Of a stretch of DNA of 64,000 bases, positions 14,350-31,513 are shown piece after piece. The translations under genes were made by a program, and so were the position numbers. The number at the start of each line of letters is the position of its first letter. Position 1 is the stretch's first letter. The notes under the pieces were generated by a model. That model ran no database searches, had not been told where the DNA came from, and saw only the letters and a program-made list of their open reading frames with translations. Source of the DNA: Renibacterium sp. (lineage in GTDB: Bacteria; Actinomycetota; Actinomycetes; Actinomycetales; Micrococcaceae); assembly GCA_017419405.1 (NCBI GenBank), contig JAFOLH010000001.1:186001-250000 (forward strand), given 5' to 3'.

Positions 14350-14499
14350 GCGGGGGCGAGAATTCGCGGCTCGGTCCCACCGAGTCTGCCCACTGAGTGG
14401 GCCAGAACCATTTTGTCCCGCTCGAAACACCGACCCGGTGGGATAAAACCGTTGGGACACATCCAGTGCGCCAGCCAGGTGCATCTAACCGCTCGAAAA

Positions 14500-14538
14500 C
14501 GAGAAGCCGCCCCGGATCAGATCCGGGGCGGCTTCTCG
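14500..14538. terminator. Bidirectional terminator between the MinD-like gene and fadD
   Basis: An 18-bp perfect inverted repeat pairs 14500-14517 with 14521-14538 around CAG; the arms begin CGAGAAGCCGCCCC. It serves two convergent genes. The remainder of the 14350-14559 gap contains smaller imperfect repeats (TTTTGTCCC near 14412, GGGATAAAA near 14441). Confidence 0.8.
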
Positions 14539-14559
14539 TCGCTCGACGGCTTGCCGGGG

Positions 14560-19927: not shown

Positions 19928-21331
19928 GTGCAAGATCAGACGAATTCACCCTTCATGACCATCGACGACTCTGCTGTCCGGCTTGGCCAAGCCGGTGCCG
20001 CGAACTACCCGGGCCTGGATGCCTGGCGCTCGCTGCCGATTTCCCAGCAGCCGACGTGGCAGGACGAAGCGGTCTATCAGTCGTCGATCAAAGAACTTTC
20101 CTCGCTGCCCCCGTTGGTTTTTGCCGGTGAAGTGGACATCTTGCGGGACCGACTCGCAGCTGCTGCCCAAGGCAAGGCGTTCCTGTTGCAGGGCGGCGAT
20201 TGCGCGGAGACCTTCGACGGTGCCACCGCGGACAAGATCAGTGCCCGGGTCAAGACGATCCTGCAGATGGCGGTCGTGCTGACCTACGGCGCTTCGCTTC
20301 CGGTGATCAAGATGGGCCGGATGGCCGGCCAGTTCGCCAAACCGCGTTCGTCCAACGATGAGACCCGGGACGGGCTCACCCTTCCCGCCTACCGCGGCGA
20401 TATGGTCAACGGCTACGAGTTCACTCCGGAGTCGCGCGGCCACGATGCGCAACGCTTGGTGCGGGCCTACCACACCTCGGCGTCGACCCTGAACTTGATC
20501 CGGGCCTTCACCCAGGGCGGGTTCGCCGACCTGCGGTTGGTGCACCACTGGAACAAGGGGTTCACGCAGAACCCGGCGCATGCCCGCTACGAATCGTTGG
20601 CCGGGGAGATCGACCGGGCGATCCGGTTCATGGAAGCCTGCGGTTCGGACTTCGAGGCGCTCAAGCGCACCGAGTTCTTCGCCAGCCACGAGGCGTTGCT
20701 GCTCGACTACGAGCGCGCGCTGACCCGGATCGACTCGCGGACCGGCACTCCGTACGCCACCAGCGGGCACTTCCTCTGGATCGGCGAGCGGACCCGGCAA
20801 TTGGATGCCGCCCACGTTGACTTCTTGTCCCGGGTGCGCAACCCGATCGGCGTCAAGCTCGGCCCGAACACCTCCGGCGACGACGCGCTGCGGCTGATCG
20901 ACAAGTTGGACCCGAACCGGGAACCCGGCCGGATCACGTTCATCACCCGGATGGGCGCGAACAACATCCGGGGGAAGCTGCCCGCGTTGGTGCAGAAGGT
21001 CACCGATTCCGGAGCCCAGGTGCTCTGGGTTACCGACCCGATGCACGGTAATACCGTGACCTCGCCGAATGGCTACAAGACGCGGAATTTCGACGACGTG
21101 ATGGACGAGGTGCGTGGCTTCTTCGAAGTGCACCAGGCATTGGGGACGTTCCCCGGAGGCTTGCACGTGGAGATGACCGGCGACGATGTGGCCGAATGCT
21201 TGGGCGGTGCTGATCCGATCGACCAGGAGGCGTTCCTGACCCGTTACGAGTCGGTTTGCGATCCGCGCCTGAACCACATGCAGTCGCTCGAGATGGCGTT
21301 CCTGGTTTCCGGAGCTCTCTCCAAACGCTGA
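19928..21331 (+). CDS. aroG: 3-deoxy-7-phosphoheptulonate (DAHP) synthase, class II
   Basis: First enzyme of the shikimate pathway, condensing phosphoenolpyruvate and erythrose 4-phosphate. The 467 residues match the class II (plant/AroG-Mtb) type. Motifs are QGGDCAETFDG with the metal-binding cysteine, KMGRMAGQFAKPRS, HHWNKGF, IGVKLGPNTSGDD and THRMGANNIR-like ITRMGANNIRGKLP, with WVTDPMHGNT and GLHVEMTGDDVAECLGG near the end. It is read from a GTG directly behind a -10 box, with an ATG nine codons later as an alternative. A 31-bp palindrome 12 bases after the stop probably terminates it. The PASTA kinase lies next downstream, as PknL does in mycobacteria. Confidence 0.95.
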   Translation: MQDQTNSPFMTIDDSAVRLGQAGAANYPGLDAWRSLPISQQPTWQDEAVYQSSIKELSSLPPLVFAGEVDILRDRLAAAAQGKAFLLQGGDCAETFDGATADKISARVKTILQMAVVLTYGASLPVIKMGRMAGQFAKPRSSNDETRDGLTLPAYRGDMVNGYEFTPESRGHDAQRLVRAYHTSASTLNLIRAFTQGGFADLRLVHHWNKGFTQNPAHARYESLAGEIDRAIRFMEACGSDFEALKRTEFFASHEALLLDYERALTRIDSRTGTPYATSGHFLWIGERTRQLDAAHVDFLSRVRNPIGVKLGPNTSGDDALRLIDKLDPNREPGRITFITRMGANNIRGKLPALVQKVTDSGAQVLWVTDPMHGNTVTSPNGYKTRNFDDVMDEVRGFFEVHQALGTFPGGLHVEMTGDDVAECLGGADPIDQEAFLTRYESVCDPRLNHMQSLEMAFLVSGALSKR

Positions 21332-21342
21332 TTAACCCCCGT

Positions 21343-21417
21343 TTCAGATAGTCGTCTGCTTTTTGGTTAGCCGTTTGTGCGTCAACCGGCTAACCAAAAA
21401 GCAGACGACTATCTGAA
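21343..21417. repeat. Palindromic element 1 (31-bp perfect inverted repeat)
   Basis: Left arm 21343-21373 and right arm 21387-21417 are perfect complements; the left arm starts TTCAGATAGTCGTCTG. The 13-base loop adds three more pairs (TTG/CAA) after one mismatch. The loop and adjacent bases (TTTGTGCGTCAACCGGCTA) match those of the element at 22428-22506 in 16 of 19 positions, so the two belong to one sequence family. The element can act as a terminator for aroG. Confidence 0.85.
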
Positions 21418-21477
21418 GTTATACACAGATCTGGGCCGGGTCTTCCACTGCGCTTAGCGGAGCCCAATAGTGATGAC

Positions 21478-22420
21478 ATGGCAGAGTCAATCCGCGACCA
21501 GATCCGTACTCCGGCAGAAGACCCACTGGATTCGAGGCTTTCACGGGATCTCCTCCGGCAGTTCCGTTCCGGAACTCTGGTGCGCTTGCGGCGGGCCAGC
21601 TACATCGCGCAGAGTACCTGGCTGTCGATGGATGAGATCCCGCGACATCTTGCCCGAATGCACGCGATCGATGCGGCTGCCAATAGCCGACCGGTATTCG
21701 CCGCGGAATCGGCGGCCTTATTGTGGGGGCTGCCGGTTCAGTCCATCCCGGAGCGGGTACAGATCAATGTGCCGCCAGGCAGCGGCCAGCGCAGTCGTGG
21801 TCCCGCGGTTCGACGGCAGTTCCCGCAGCTTGACGACGGCGAGTGGTTCGTAGACGGACTGAAGGTGACTTCGGCGGTGCAGACCGCCGTCGAACTTGCC
21901 CTGCGTCAGCGCTACGCCTGGTCAATCGCATCGCTGGACAATTATTTGCATGGTCCGACCTCGAGCGCTGCGTGGAAGCCTTCGGCGCAGGGGCTTCGCG
22001 AAGCGGCGTGCCGCCTGCCGAGCCGGGCAAAGACCCGACGGGTTTTGGCGCTCACGGAGTTGGCCGATGCCGGCTCCATGTCAGTTGGCGAATCGATCAG
22101 CCGAGCGAATATGCATTTGGCCGGTTTGCCGAAACCAACGCTCCAAGCCTGCTTCCGTGACGACGACGGATTGATCGGCTATACGGATTTTTGCTGGCGG
22201 GAATTCGGCGTAGTCGGCGAATTCGACGGAAAGGTGAAATACCGGAAGCCGGAGTACCTGCAGGGGAGGGACCCGGCGGAAGTGGTCATCGAGGAGAAAA
22301 AAAATAAGGGAAGACCGGCTCCGTGCGCTAGGGCTGAAAGTTGTCCGCTGGACCTGGGCAACCGCCAATTCGCCGAATCAGTTGCGGAGCAGGCTCGTGG
22401 CTGCGGGGCTTCCTCGCTAA
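21478..22420 (+). pseudogene. AbiEi-antitoxin-like / DUF559 nuclease-like gene broken by a one-base frameshift
   Basis: The N-terminal half resembles the AbiEi-type winged helix found in many actinobacterial proteins of about 310 residues (RDLLRQFRSGTLVRLRRASYI, in part LLRQFRSGTLVRLRRASYI). The C-terminal part has the vsr/DUF559-like nuclease core (GLIGYTDFCW, VVGEFDGKVKY, EVVIEEKK). After EEKK the frame is wrong: a run of eight A (22287-22294) shifts it. With seven A it would read EEKKIREDRLRALGLKVVRW, matching the family, and stop at 22418-22420, giving 313 residues. In the present frame translation runs on to 22503 through the second palindrome. It is a pseudogene, a phase-variable gene, or a homopolymer read error. 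Confidence 0.75.
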
Positions 22421-22427
22421 ACCCGCT

Positions 22428-22506
22428 GTTTCAGATAGCCAGTTGTCTTTTCGTTTCCGATTTGCGCGTCAAGAGGCTATCGGAAAGGCGGAAGGCCATC
22501 TGAAAC
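22428..22506. repeat. Palindromic element 2 (degenerate copy of element 1)
   Basis: The outer arms GTTTCAGAT (22428-22436) and ATCTGAAAC (22498-22506) pair, GCC/GGC follow, and an inner stem TTTCCGA (22454-22460) pairs with TCGGAAA (22480-22486). Its loop TTTGCGCGTCAAGAGGCTA closely matches element 1. It lies between the end of the broken gene and the convergent kinase gene and may terminate both. Confidence 0.75.
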
Positions 22507-22511
22507 GGGGA

Positions 22512-24641
22512 TCAGACCACGGTGAGGTTGATGACCGTGCCCTCGGGGACCGAAGTGTTGACCGGATCCTGGGCCCGTACCGTGCCGAAGAACCCGCCCA
22601 GGACCTCAGTGATCTTGTAGGGCAGGTTGAGCTTCTTCAACTCGTCGATCGCCTGCTGCACCTGTTTGCCCACGAAGCTCGGCACGGTGACCATTTTCGG
22701 ACCCTTGGAAATCACCAGGGTCACCTGGCCGCCCTTGGTCAACGTGCCGCTCGCCGGAGTCTGCGAAACCACTGCGCCGGCCGGGACTTTCGCGTCATTT
22801 ACCTGCTCCGGAGCCACCGCCGGCACCAAGCCGGCATCGGTGATGGCCTTGACCGCGGCGTCCTGGGTCTGCCCGACGACGACGGGCACCGGAATCGGTT
22901 GCGGACCCTGGGACACGACGAGATTGATCTGGGTTGCGGCTCGTTTCTGGGTTTCGGGTGCCGGGTCCTGGCTCAGCACCTGCCCCGCTGGCGCCTGCTC
23001 ATCGTATTTCTGCGTCACCGTGCCCAGCGCCAGATGATTGGCGTTGAGCGCGGTTTTGGCGGCGTCCAAGGTGCCGCCGACCATGGCCGGCACCGGATAG
23101 AGCGTGGGTCCCTGGGAAACCAGCAAAACCACCGACAGGAACTTGCGCTGCTGGGTCTGCGCCGGCGGTTGGCTGCTGACCACGTTGCCTTGGGCGATGA
23201 GCTCGTCATTCACGTTCTGCGTGGTCGAGGCGAAACCCAGGCTGCTCAATTCGGCTTGCGCCTGCGAGACGGTCTTGTCCTTGAGATCGGGGACCGTGGC
23301 CAGGGCGCCGGGCCCCATGCCGAAGAACCAGCCCGCAGTGGCCCCGAGCAGGGCCAACAGCAAAATCAGCACCAACCAGATCATGCCCTTGCGCCGGGTG
23401 TTCCCCTTGCGCAGCGTGGCCACCGGGGTGGCGGCGTTGCGAGCCGCATCGCGGGCCGCGAGCTTGTCCGCCTTCTTCTTCGCGGAACGTGCCGCCCGGG
23501 GCGCGATCCGGGGCGCCTCCCCAGTGTCCACGGTCAGCGGGGGAGTCCGTTCCAGCATCGCGGTCGGCTGCACCTGCCGGTCGAACACCTCGGTGTACTG
23601 CCCCGCGGCGTCGTTGCGGTCGGCGACCAGTTCCGTGGGCCGCGACTGCGGGTCCAGAGCTTCGGTCAGATCGGTCGGGTCCACCGGCCGGGCCGAAGCC
23701 ACCGGCCGGGTCAGCGCCGACGTCGGCGGGAAGGCCGGTGGGGCGGGCAGGCCTCGGCGGGTACCGGGGCCGAAGTCGAGTTGCGCATCACTGAGCGAGG
23801 TCCGGATGTGCCGGATTTCACCCAACAGGGCGCTTGCGTCGTGCGGGCGGCCTTCGGGATCGGATTCGGTGCACCAACGCACCAACTCGTCGAGGTCCGG
23901 AGCCAGGCCTGGCCGGACGCTGGACGGTGCCGGCACGGCGGAGTTCACGTGCTGGTAGGCAACCTGGATGGGCACCTCGCCGCGGAAAGGCTGTTCGCCG
24001 GTGAGCAGTTCGAAGAGCATGATTCCGACGGCGTAGATGTCGCTGCGCGTGTCTGAAGGCTTGCCCATCACCAGCTCGGGCGAAAGATAGGCCACGGTAC
24101 CGATCAGGGTGCCGGTGCTGGTCGAGGTGGTGACCGCGCGGGCCAGGCCGAAATCCGCCACCTTGATCCGGCCGTCGTCGGCGATCAGGACATTCTCCGG
24201 TTTGATGTCGCGGTGCACCAGGCCGGCGCGGTGCGCCGCGGCCAACCCGTCCACGACCGCGTCGAGGTAGGCCAAGGCCAACCGCGGAGTCAGCGCGCCC
24301 TGGTCGTTGAGCACATCGCGGAGGGTGTGCCCGGGCACGTACTCCATGACCAGGTAGGCGAGCTGCGCGCCGTCGCGCAGCTCTTCGCCCTGATCCAGGA
24401 CCCCGACGACGTGCGGGTGGGAGAGCCGGGCTGCGGCCTTGGCTTCGGTGCCCAGCCGGTCCAGGAAAGAGTCGTCCATGCTCAGATGCGGATGCAGCAC
24501 TTTGAGCGCCACTTCGCGGTCCAGGCGCAAGTCAGTGGCAAGGTACACGGTGGCCATGCCACCGCGCGCTACCTTGCTCAGCACCTGGTACCGCTGGTCT
24601 ACCAGTGAGCCCACCAACGGTTCTTGAACCTTATCCTGCAC
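22512..24641 (-). CDS. pknL: Membrane Ser/Thr protein kinase with PASTA domains (PknL position)
   Basis: 709-residue receptor kinase. The kinase domain (about 18-280) has GGMATVY in the glycine loop, ALKVL with the ATP lysine, HRDIKPEN as catalytic loop, DFG in VADFGLA, and TSTSTGTLIGTVAYLSPE as the activation loop. A basic linker leads to one transmembrane helix (about 419-440, IWLVLILLLALLGATAGWF). Four extracellular PASTA repeats follow, which bind muropeptides or lipid II in relatives. GTG 24641 is six bases behind TAGGAT, suggesting a leaderless mRNA. Its neighbours aroG and an Rv2175c-like gene match the mycobacterial pknL locus, although Mtb PknL lacks PASTA repeats. Confidence 0.92.
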   Translation of the reverse strand: MQDKVQEPLVGSLVDQRYQVLSKVARGGMATVYLATDLRLDREVALKVLHPHLSMDDSFLDRLGTEAKAAARLSHPHVVGVLDQGEELRDGAQLAYLVMEYVPGHTLRDVLNDQGALTPRLALAYLDAVVDGLAAAHRAGLVHRDIKPENVLIADDGRIKVADFGLARAVTTSTSTGTLIGTVAYLSPELVMGKPSDTRSDIYAVGIMLFELLTGEQPFRGEVPIQVAYQHVNSAVPAPSSVRPGLAPDLDELVRWCTESDPEGRPHDASALLGEIRHIRTSLSDAQLDFGPGTRRGLPAPPAFPPTSALTRPVASARPVDPTDLTEALDPQSRPTELVADRNDAAGQYTEVFDRQVQPTAMLERTPPLTVDTGEAPRIAPRAARSAKKKADKLAARDAARNAATPVATLRKGNTRRKGMIWLVLILLLALLGATAGWFFGMGPGALATVPDLKDKTVSQAQAELSSLGFASTTQNVNDELIAQGNVVSSQPPAQTQQRKFLSVVLLVSQGPTLYPVPAMVGGTLDAAKTALNANHLALGTVTQKYDEQAPAGQVLSQDPAPETQKRAATQINLVVSQGPQPIPVPVVVGQTQDAAVKAITDAGLVPAVAPEQVNDAKVPAGAVVSQTPASGTLTKGGQVTLVISKGPKMVTVPSFVGKQVQQAIDELKKLNLPYKITEVLGGFFGTVRAQDPVNTSVPEGTVINLTVV

Positions 24642-30921: not shown

Positions 30922-31353
30922 GTGTTCCTTGGGACTCACTCACCGCGCCTCGATGAAAAAGGGAGGTTGATCCTCCCCGCCAAATTCCGGGATGAGCTCG
31001 GCAACGGTTTGGTCCTCACCCGAGGGCAGGAACGTTGCATCTACGTCTTCAGCCAGCGGGAATTCGAACGAGTGCACGAGCAGATGCGGGAGGCCCCGAT
31101 TTCCTCCCGGCAGGCACGCGATTACATTCGGGTTTTCCTTTCTGGAGCGTCGGACGAAATGCCGGACAAGCAAGGGCGGGTCACGATTCCGCCGGCGCTT
31201 CGGGCGTATGCCGGTTTGGACCGGGAGTTGGCCGTGATCGGCGCCGGCACCCGGGCTGAAATCTGGGATGCGGCAGCCTGGAACGACTACCTCCTGGAGA
31301 AGGAAACCGCCTTCTCCGACACCGACGACAACGACATACCCGGAATCTTCTGA
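30922..31353 (+). CDS. mraZ: Transcriptional regulator MraZ
   Basis: 143-residue AbrB-like DNA-binding protein that heads the dcw cluster and represses it in other bacteria. Both MraZ halves are present, each with the DxKGR signature: [17 protein letters not shown] and [15 protein letters not shown]. The start is GTG 30922 behind GGGAGGTGG. The protein forms ring-shaped oligomers whose subunits contact tandem DNA repeats, in line with the repeats in its promoter. It is the first gene of a run of about 20 genes on the same strand. Confidence 0.95.
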
Positions 31354-31388
31354 CGGATCTTGGATGAGATCTCCAGCCGCCCGGCCCC

Positions 31389-31414
31389 TCCTGACGCACC
31401 TTCCCCGGTGTCAG
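31389..31414 (+). ncRNA. Candidate mraW RNA motif hairpin
   Basis: CCTGAC-GC-ACC pairs with GGTGTCAGG around the loop TTCCCC, in the gap between mraZ and rsmH. The mraW RNA motif described for actinobacteria is a hairpin before mraW (rsmH) with a conserved CUUCCCC-like loop, which fits in position and loop sequence. Its role is thought to be cis-regulation of wall genes. Matching is from memory of the motif, not from a covariance search. Confidence 0.5.
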
Positions 31415-31513
31415 GCGGAGCGCATGGTGCGGAGGGGGATCTGGTCCAAGAACCACAGACGGGCCGGACAGCTTCGCATCAGACCGCAGGGAACCAGGCA
31501 GGGGAGAGCAGCA

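Follow-up and report, generated by a model that had tools for sequence, protein, structure and literature searches.

In this study, we describe a family of palindromic elements of about 80 bp that lies dispersed through a Renibacterium genome (G000) and the genomes of several relatives, close behind genes, and whose copies have come to resemble one another within a genome in lineage-specific dialects. The palindrome family is real; it is REP/BIME-like, is RAYT-less and forms no gene cassette. With a probability of roughly 60%, we read it as a lineage-restricted, REP/BIME-like repeat family whose dialects arise through recognition of its units, copying between arms and conversion between elements, and which has a role at the 3' ends of genes. 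The family came to attention through the window, the stretch of 64,000 nucleotides of G000 that was analysed, in which an initial annotation had seen two homologous long palindromes around one defence-like gene.

Results

Two related palindromes bracket one gene

The two palindromes and the genes around them are listed in Table 1. Element 1 starts 9 nt past the stop codon of the DAHP synthase gene, and its arms (21343-21377 and 21383-21417; 35 nt) are 97% complementary. The perfect 31-bp inverted repeat that the initial annotation ascribed to it can be read directly from the sequence, with all of the outer 31 pairs (21343-21373 with 21387-21417) matching. Element 2, which takes up the space between two stop codons, those of the bracketed gene (22421) and of the convergent PASTA kinase gene (22512), was rightly described as a copy 1.1 kb away that is degenerate in the stem and keeps GTTTCAGATAG at its edge; its arms (22428-22453 and 22481-22506) are 73% complementary. 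The two elements are direct repeats (82 nt, 71% identity) spaced 1087 nt apart. Their loops are conserved as had been noted, although by eye the count of identical bases is 16 of 20 and not 16 of 19. With at most one mismatch, GTTTCAGATAG occurs three times in the window, always within element 1 or 2, and three occurrences were reached in 0 of 100 shuffles.

Mononucleotide shuffling of the window, done 20 times, produced no perfect inverted 14-mers (loop <=20 nt). The window itself contains several further ones that are unrelated to the elements, and therefore a long palindrome by itself is not unusual here; what is beyond chance is the common loop and boxes together with 29 additional places. 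Elsewhere in the window lie a perfect inverted repeat with 20-nt arms and one central base (14499-14539), which does not match the family model, and an mraW RNA (31351-31462; RF01746, 57.9 bits).

Table 1. Positions of the elements, their boxes and the adjoining genes in the window, and of the AAGATGCATCTT subfamily copies in their loci
Feature	Position	Strand	Description
Class II DAHP synthase gene	19928..21331	+	upstream of element 1; PF01474, E 9.5e-201
Element 1	21341..21420	+	palindromic repeat, 31-bp perfect stem
Element 1 boxes	GATAG 21347-21351, GTTAGC 21366-21371, GCTAAC 21389-21394, CTATC 21409-21413		
Bracketed gene	21478..22421	+	AbiEi-antitoxin-like N-terminal part and Vsr/EDxHD-like nuclease C-terminal part
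Element 2	22428..22506	+	degenerate copy, between two convergent 3' ends
Element 2 boxes	GATAG 22434-22438, inner box 22453-22458 (degenerate), GCTATC 22476-22481, CCATC 22496-22500		
PASTA-domain serine/threonine kinase gene	22512..24641	-	convergent; PF00069, PF03793; stop codon 5 nt past element 2
AAGATGCATCTT subfamily, G000	L093:3031-3101, L098:2995-3065, L099:3062-3132		
AAGATGCATCTT subfamily, G078	L254:1520-1590, L255:1542-1612		

The elements form a dispersed, lineage-restricted family

The genome-wide search and covariance model that the initial annotation had named as a check revealed further copies. A BLAST search with element 1 returned 15 strand-wise matches in G000, and a covariance model built from 10 oriented copies of that genome gave 62 strand-wise matches at E <=1, which merged to 31 places. 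Among these, L093, L098 and L099 differ in their outer module (see below), and L099 is a weak match (E 0.07). The suggestion of a mobile or REP-like palindrome family therefore stands as far as a dispersed, REP-like extragenic repeat at 31 places is concerned, and finds no support for the gene-carrying unit. In a second genome of the same species (G078), 56 strand-wise matches merged to 28 places. Copies numbered 26 in G002 (3,155,250 bp), which we take to be Renibacterium salmoninarum, 40 in Psychromicrobium silvestre (G004) and 6 in G005. All of these counts are lower bounds, since the model, made from G000 copies, was applied to no more than 117-150 first-look candidates per genome. Common descent accounts for the conservation of loop and boxes.

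The range of the family is narrow. Two genomes of the same genus, G001 and G003, had no match at E 0.01, and 6 of the 39 genomes besides G000 matched the model, among them G007 with one weak match (E 0.008) and, doubtfully, G009 from another genus, whose 9 model matches are left out of all counts. By eye, two of three G009 loci are one place without boxes, and the third, L060, holds a palindrome whose boxes read GGTAGC, possibly a distant relative. In genome_contigs, a collection from which records of G000 and near relatives may be missing, an exact four-box pattern matched 16 stretches, 14 from P. silvestre and 2 from one MAG. The same pattern had no occurrence in viral_contigs, and blastn (1e-5) returned no plasmid relatives. 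The MAG stretches (L150:891-957 and L153:7432-7498, one contig of the Actinomycetota MAG JAIUOH010000008.1) are two near-identical four-box GATAG palindromes with a different unit sequence. In the window and in ten loci, no element matched an Rfam family at gathering scores; about 50 nt from the G002 element at 2489-2571 lies a match to the TPP riboswitch (RF00059; L168:2339-2439, minus strand). The copies do not cluster along the chromosome, their positions being no different from uniform in G002 (KS P 0.41) and G078 (KS P 0.77).

Each element is built of four units of about 19 bp round GATAGC boxes, two direct and two inverted, so that each arm holds two units and the whole reads u1 u2, then u2' u1'. 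The u1 consensus is TTTCAGATAGC followed by four variable letters and TG (case ignored) in G000, TTTCAGATAGCNAGACG in G002 and TTCGCGATAGCCCANTG in P. silvestre. In P. silvestre, the one genome tested, the unit pattern with at most 2 mismatches had 93 matches, 91 of them inside elements, and the reversed control pattern had 1, which rules out single dispersed units or an over-represented single motif in that genome. A subfamily combines an inner GATAGC-like unit pair with an outer module, AAGATGCATCTT, which is itself palindromic and stands at both ends; G078 lacks this type at the three G000 sites and has it at two others.

Elements lie behind genes without a U-tract

We compared the gene context of the copies with that of 167 gaps (>=60 nt) that hold no element, taken from the copies' own loci and the window, using gene calls from our own hexamer caller; 102 of 103 copies were counted, L084 being dropped as no gene was called on one side. 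Convergent gaps were strongly enriched (44 of 102 copies against 9 of 167 background gaps; P 6e-14) and divergent gaps depleted (7 of 102 against 51 of 167; P 3e-6), and 51 copies and 107 background gaps were co-directional. A 3' end is faced by 95 copies, 76 of which overlap it as called or lie within 60 nt of it. TTTT was found within 10 nt beyond the match at 5 of 206 ends, and terminator calling placed no terminator-like site at element 1 or element 2. The elements thus sit in the terminator niche without a U-tract. In relatives, the DAHP-kinase gap of G005 holds a shorter hairpin, by eye resembling the inner unit pair and followed by T6, and other genera carry hairpins of an unrelated kind. 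Among eight relatives whose DAHP synthase 3' side was folded, several have unrelated strong hairpins, some with T-runs (by eye).

Many sites are common to species and sequences mostly follow the genome

Sites were taken as orthologous on the evidence of their flanking genes, for some of them on a single side. By this measure, one or both flanking genes place 19 G000 copies at 17 sites that hold an element in G002, P. silvestre copies pair with 9 copies of G000 and 10 of G002, and 5 copies of G005 pair with P. silvestre copies. We used 43 pairs (G000-G002, G000-G004, G002-G004 and G004-G005); pairs of G000 or G002 with G005 were left out, as was the pair of L185 in P. silvestre and L075 in G000 (51% protein match). 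In best orientation, the identity of orthologous copies was 0.586 versus 0.548 for other cross-species pairs between G000 and G002 (permutation P 0.02), 0.548 versus 0.535 between G000 and P. silvestre (P 0.24) and 0.544 versus 0.533 between G002 and P. silvestre (P 0.25). Mean identity within a genome, by the same measure, was 0.580 in G000, 0.692 in G002 and 0.735 in P. silvestre. With G005 left out, all copies of G002 (26 of 26) and of P. silvestre (40 of 40) had their nearest copy within their own genome, as did 27 of 31 in G000, the remaining 4 having theirs in G002. The dialect contrast is clear for G002 and P. silvestre. The G000 genome is mixed: several copies have G002-like units (by eye), and its within-genome mean of 0.580 is not above the 0.586 of the G000-G002 orthologues. 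Orthologous pairs of P. silvestre and G005 scored 0.706 versus 0.661 (n=5, P 0.07); since these two share a dialect, not every species has a private one.

The dialect extends over both unit positions. With the box excluded, the profiles of u1 and u2 from the same species correlate at 0.76 (G000), 0.72 (G002) and 0.76 (P. silvestre), and between species the correlations are 0.66, 0.44 and 0.47 for u1 with u1 and 0.54, 0.32 and 0.48 for u2 with u2; with the box included, u1 of G000 is about as close to u1 of G002 (0.76) as to its own u2 (0.74). Many sites are common to species and their sequence is not, which means concerted evolution into dialects and points to some process or protein that would keep the copies of a genome alike. 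The distant pairs listed within a genome have identities of at most 0.88, and thus no recent whole-copy spread is seen. Among 11 close pairs (<4 kb), 4 surpass 99.8% or more of the distant pairs in similarity, and 7 are not unusual.

Arm pairing differs between lineages

When the arms of an element were compared with arms swapped between elements, the match was 0.72 versus 0.58 in G000 and 0.86 versus 0.72 in G002, values reached by 0 of 2000 swaps in either genome. In P. silvestre the true arms were slightly worse than swapped ones (0.713 versus 0.738; 1999 of 2000 swaps at least as high), with the mismatch mainly in the two columns behind the outer box (P 4e-4 and 0.014, without correction for 36 columns). 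There, P. silvestre copies (L136, L184-L217) tend to have C on one arm and T on the other after the outer GATAG box, a pattern that looks as if perfect stems were being avoided; palindrome-processing nucleases (SbcCD) might account for such avoidance. On the transcript strand of the 51 co-directional copies, there were 131 G-U and 129 A-C mispairs. Since G-U is not favoured, pairing looks to be a DNA-level matter, and selection at the RNA level was rejected on the equality of the two mispairs. We read this as recognition of the units as DNA, with copying from arm to arm in two of the lineages.

Two strains of one species differ at several elements

A G078 locus was found for 21 of the 31 G000 copies; L095 and L096 have no G078 counterpart among the loci fetched. 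With L089 and L093 left out, the strains differ at 51 of 1559 positions in elements and at 279 of 15200 in flanks. The strains have opposite loop orientations at L080 and three different letters in the left arm, which leaves one of them with the better stem (by eye). At L093, the G000 element has AAGATGCATCTT ends and G078 a canonical element, and at L098 G078 has an ordinary hairpin (by eye) where G000 has a AAGATGCATCTT element. The copies at L089 are strongly different, within a more diverged region. At L099, 163 nt between short direct repeats in G000 are missing from G078.

The bracketed gene is probably not a partner of the family

Compared with AbiE type IV toxin-antitoxin systems, which pair an AbiEi antitoxin with an AbiEii toxin, the product of the bracketed gene has an AbiEi-like fold over residues 3-197, with weak matches to AbiEi profiles, and the gene's direct neighbours among local genes are those for DAHP synthase and the kinase. 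Its frame is broken in G000 at an A-run (about 22297-22304), and intact orthologues are present in G078, G002 and P. silvestre. Gene and both palindromes co-occur at this site in three species (G000/G078, G002 and P. silvestre) and are jointly missing from it in G005; the gene is also absent from the site in the remaining genomes inspected there. A relative with the gene and without palindromes, which the initial annotation had named as the adverse case, was thus not encountered at the locus, gene and palindromes being present or absent together. In G001 a contig end (L138:1150-1411) folds back into a second copy of the final part of the DAHP synthase gene, probably an assembly artefact, and hides the orthologous gap in that genome.

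Beyond this locus the association finds no support. The gene family occurs in 46 of 61 genomes drawn from the bacterial family, with or without elements, and G001 carries a homologue yet no element. Three further homologues in G000 (C4:49131, C1:198294 and C14:59943) have some 25 kb or more between them and the closest element listed and are not bracketed by copies. No second copy lies within 1.6 kb of 25 of the 31 G000 copies, and genes between other close copies appear unrelated, coding by eye for a HIT-like protein, for one like a 2'-5' RNA ligase and for others. We thus find no support for a family that carries a defence-like gene or moves along with one. As to REP transposases, the other association named for checking, the Y1_Tnp domain (PF01797) was found in none of G000, G001, G003, G004, G005 and G009, and at one place, matched in two pieces, in G002. 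Its lack in 6 of the 7 genomes searched led us to reject an association with RAYT.

Discussion

On present evidence, the family is neither a RAYT-driven REP nor a canonical intrinsic terminator. In the model that we favour, a putative trans-acting protein, one per lineage, would read the units as double-stranded DNA and keep those of a genome to one dialect. Good stems could be restored and loops flipped within an element by hairpin copying, a template switch from one arm to the other, and between elements, conversion or local duplication would spread variants, more strongly among some neighbours. The position behind genes may represent a boundary or 3'-end site, where related species have ordinary hairpins.

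It is unlikely, in our estimation, that the elements are ordinary bidirectional transcription terminators that owe their shared sequence to old duplications and in which the RNA hairpin alone matters. Placement at 3' ends and between convergent genes would suit such a role, as would the unrelated strong hairpins behind DAHP synthase in several of the eight relatives and the hairpin that G078 has in place of the G000 element at L098. Against this, T-runs after the match are rare, no terminator was called at elements 1 and 2, G-U is not preferred over A-C, the arms of P. silvestre are less complementary than swapped ones, and a hairpin role alone leaves the dialect common to both unit positions unexplained. 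A driver could instead be sought in the bracketed gene, whose putative AbiEi-like/Vsr-like nuclease would bind and cut the palindromes, with repair from other copies homogenising the family in a homing or REPtron-like manner; judging from the sequence, we think this improbable. The gene family is common regardless of elements, and G001 has a homologue and none of them; the G000 copy is interrupted while the elements persist; and other close pairs flank ordinary-looking genes. It is equally doubtful that this is a self-reinforcing palindrome system, in which a putative fusion of an AbiEi-like DNA-binding part with a Vsr/EDxHD nuclease, situated between its own targets, would rewrite dozens of sites of about 80 bp in place and thereby give a lineage its private dialect.

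Two further explanations have very little in their favour. Were the units uptake-sequence-like marks, biased DNA uptake would drive the dialects, as in Neisseriaceae, where DNA uptake sequences (DUS) do show species dialects and inverted pairs at terminator positions, according to the portion of that work used here (PMC3630211). That the units of P. silvestre lie almost without exception in elements speaks against this, and since they do, there are at most about 160 units in that genome, versus the thousands of DUS reported in the same portion (PMC3630211); we regard this origin as highly improbable. It is just as hard to credit a mobile cassette, in which the defence-like gene would be carried between the two palindromes and move with them as one. 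Joint absence of gene and elements in G005 and joint presence in three species fit it, yet most G000 copies are solitary within 1.6 kb, the three other G000 homologues are unbracketed and other bracketed genes differ.

For dispersed short repeats of bacteria, a transposase is the usual explanation. Here, many sites are common to species and no RAYT was found in G000, yet copies at unrelated places share a dialect unlike that of their orthologues. The concerted evolution of dispersed, non-coding bacterial DNA thus becomes directly testable in a few species, and two strains of one species catch the changes in the act, in the form of loop flip, replacement and loss, with one candidate enzyme at hand. 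Searches of the open-access literature on palindromes of Renibacterium salmoninarum, Arthrobacter or Psychromicrobium, or on intergenic concerted evolution, brought up no description of the family.

Among known systems, REP/BIME sequences are extragenic palindromes tagged by GTAG or CGTC, and those with CGTC also occur without a dedicated transposase, as set out in the part of the source available to us (PMC3733652). Like them, as that part describes them, the present elements are dispersed extragenic palindromes, for the most part in convergent or co-directional gaps and close to 3' ends (PMC3733652). They differ in size, with four units of about 19 bp making up about 80 bp compared with the 20-40 bp given there for REP (PMC3733652), and their consensus (G000, G002, P. 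silvestre and G005 only) lacks a one-sided GTAG or CGTC tag, the feet being near-symmetric (GATAG / CTATC). The rewriting of dialects at shared sites likewise sets the family apart from REP/BIME. The word Actinobacteria is absent from the main text of that source (PMC3733652).

Within Renibacterium itself, a 91-bp perfect palindrome behind a virulence-associated gene of R. salmoninarum has been called a predicted rho-independent terminator, in the part of that report considered here (PMC5320689). Compared by description only, it resembles the elements in being long and close behind a gene; it is presented there as a single palindrome with a polymorphic central base, and that part describes no dispersed family (PMC5320689). 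The DUS dialects of Neisseriaceae, on the portion of the account cited above, are alike in being species-specific versions of one motif whose core is conserved, often as inverted pairs at terminators (PMC3630211). Unlike DUS, which in that account are single motifs by the thousands (PMC3630211), the units of the present family occur almost only in four-unit palindromes, at tens of places.
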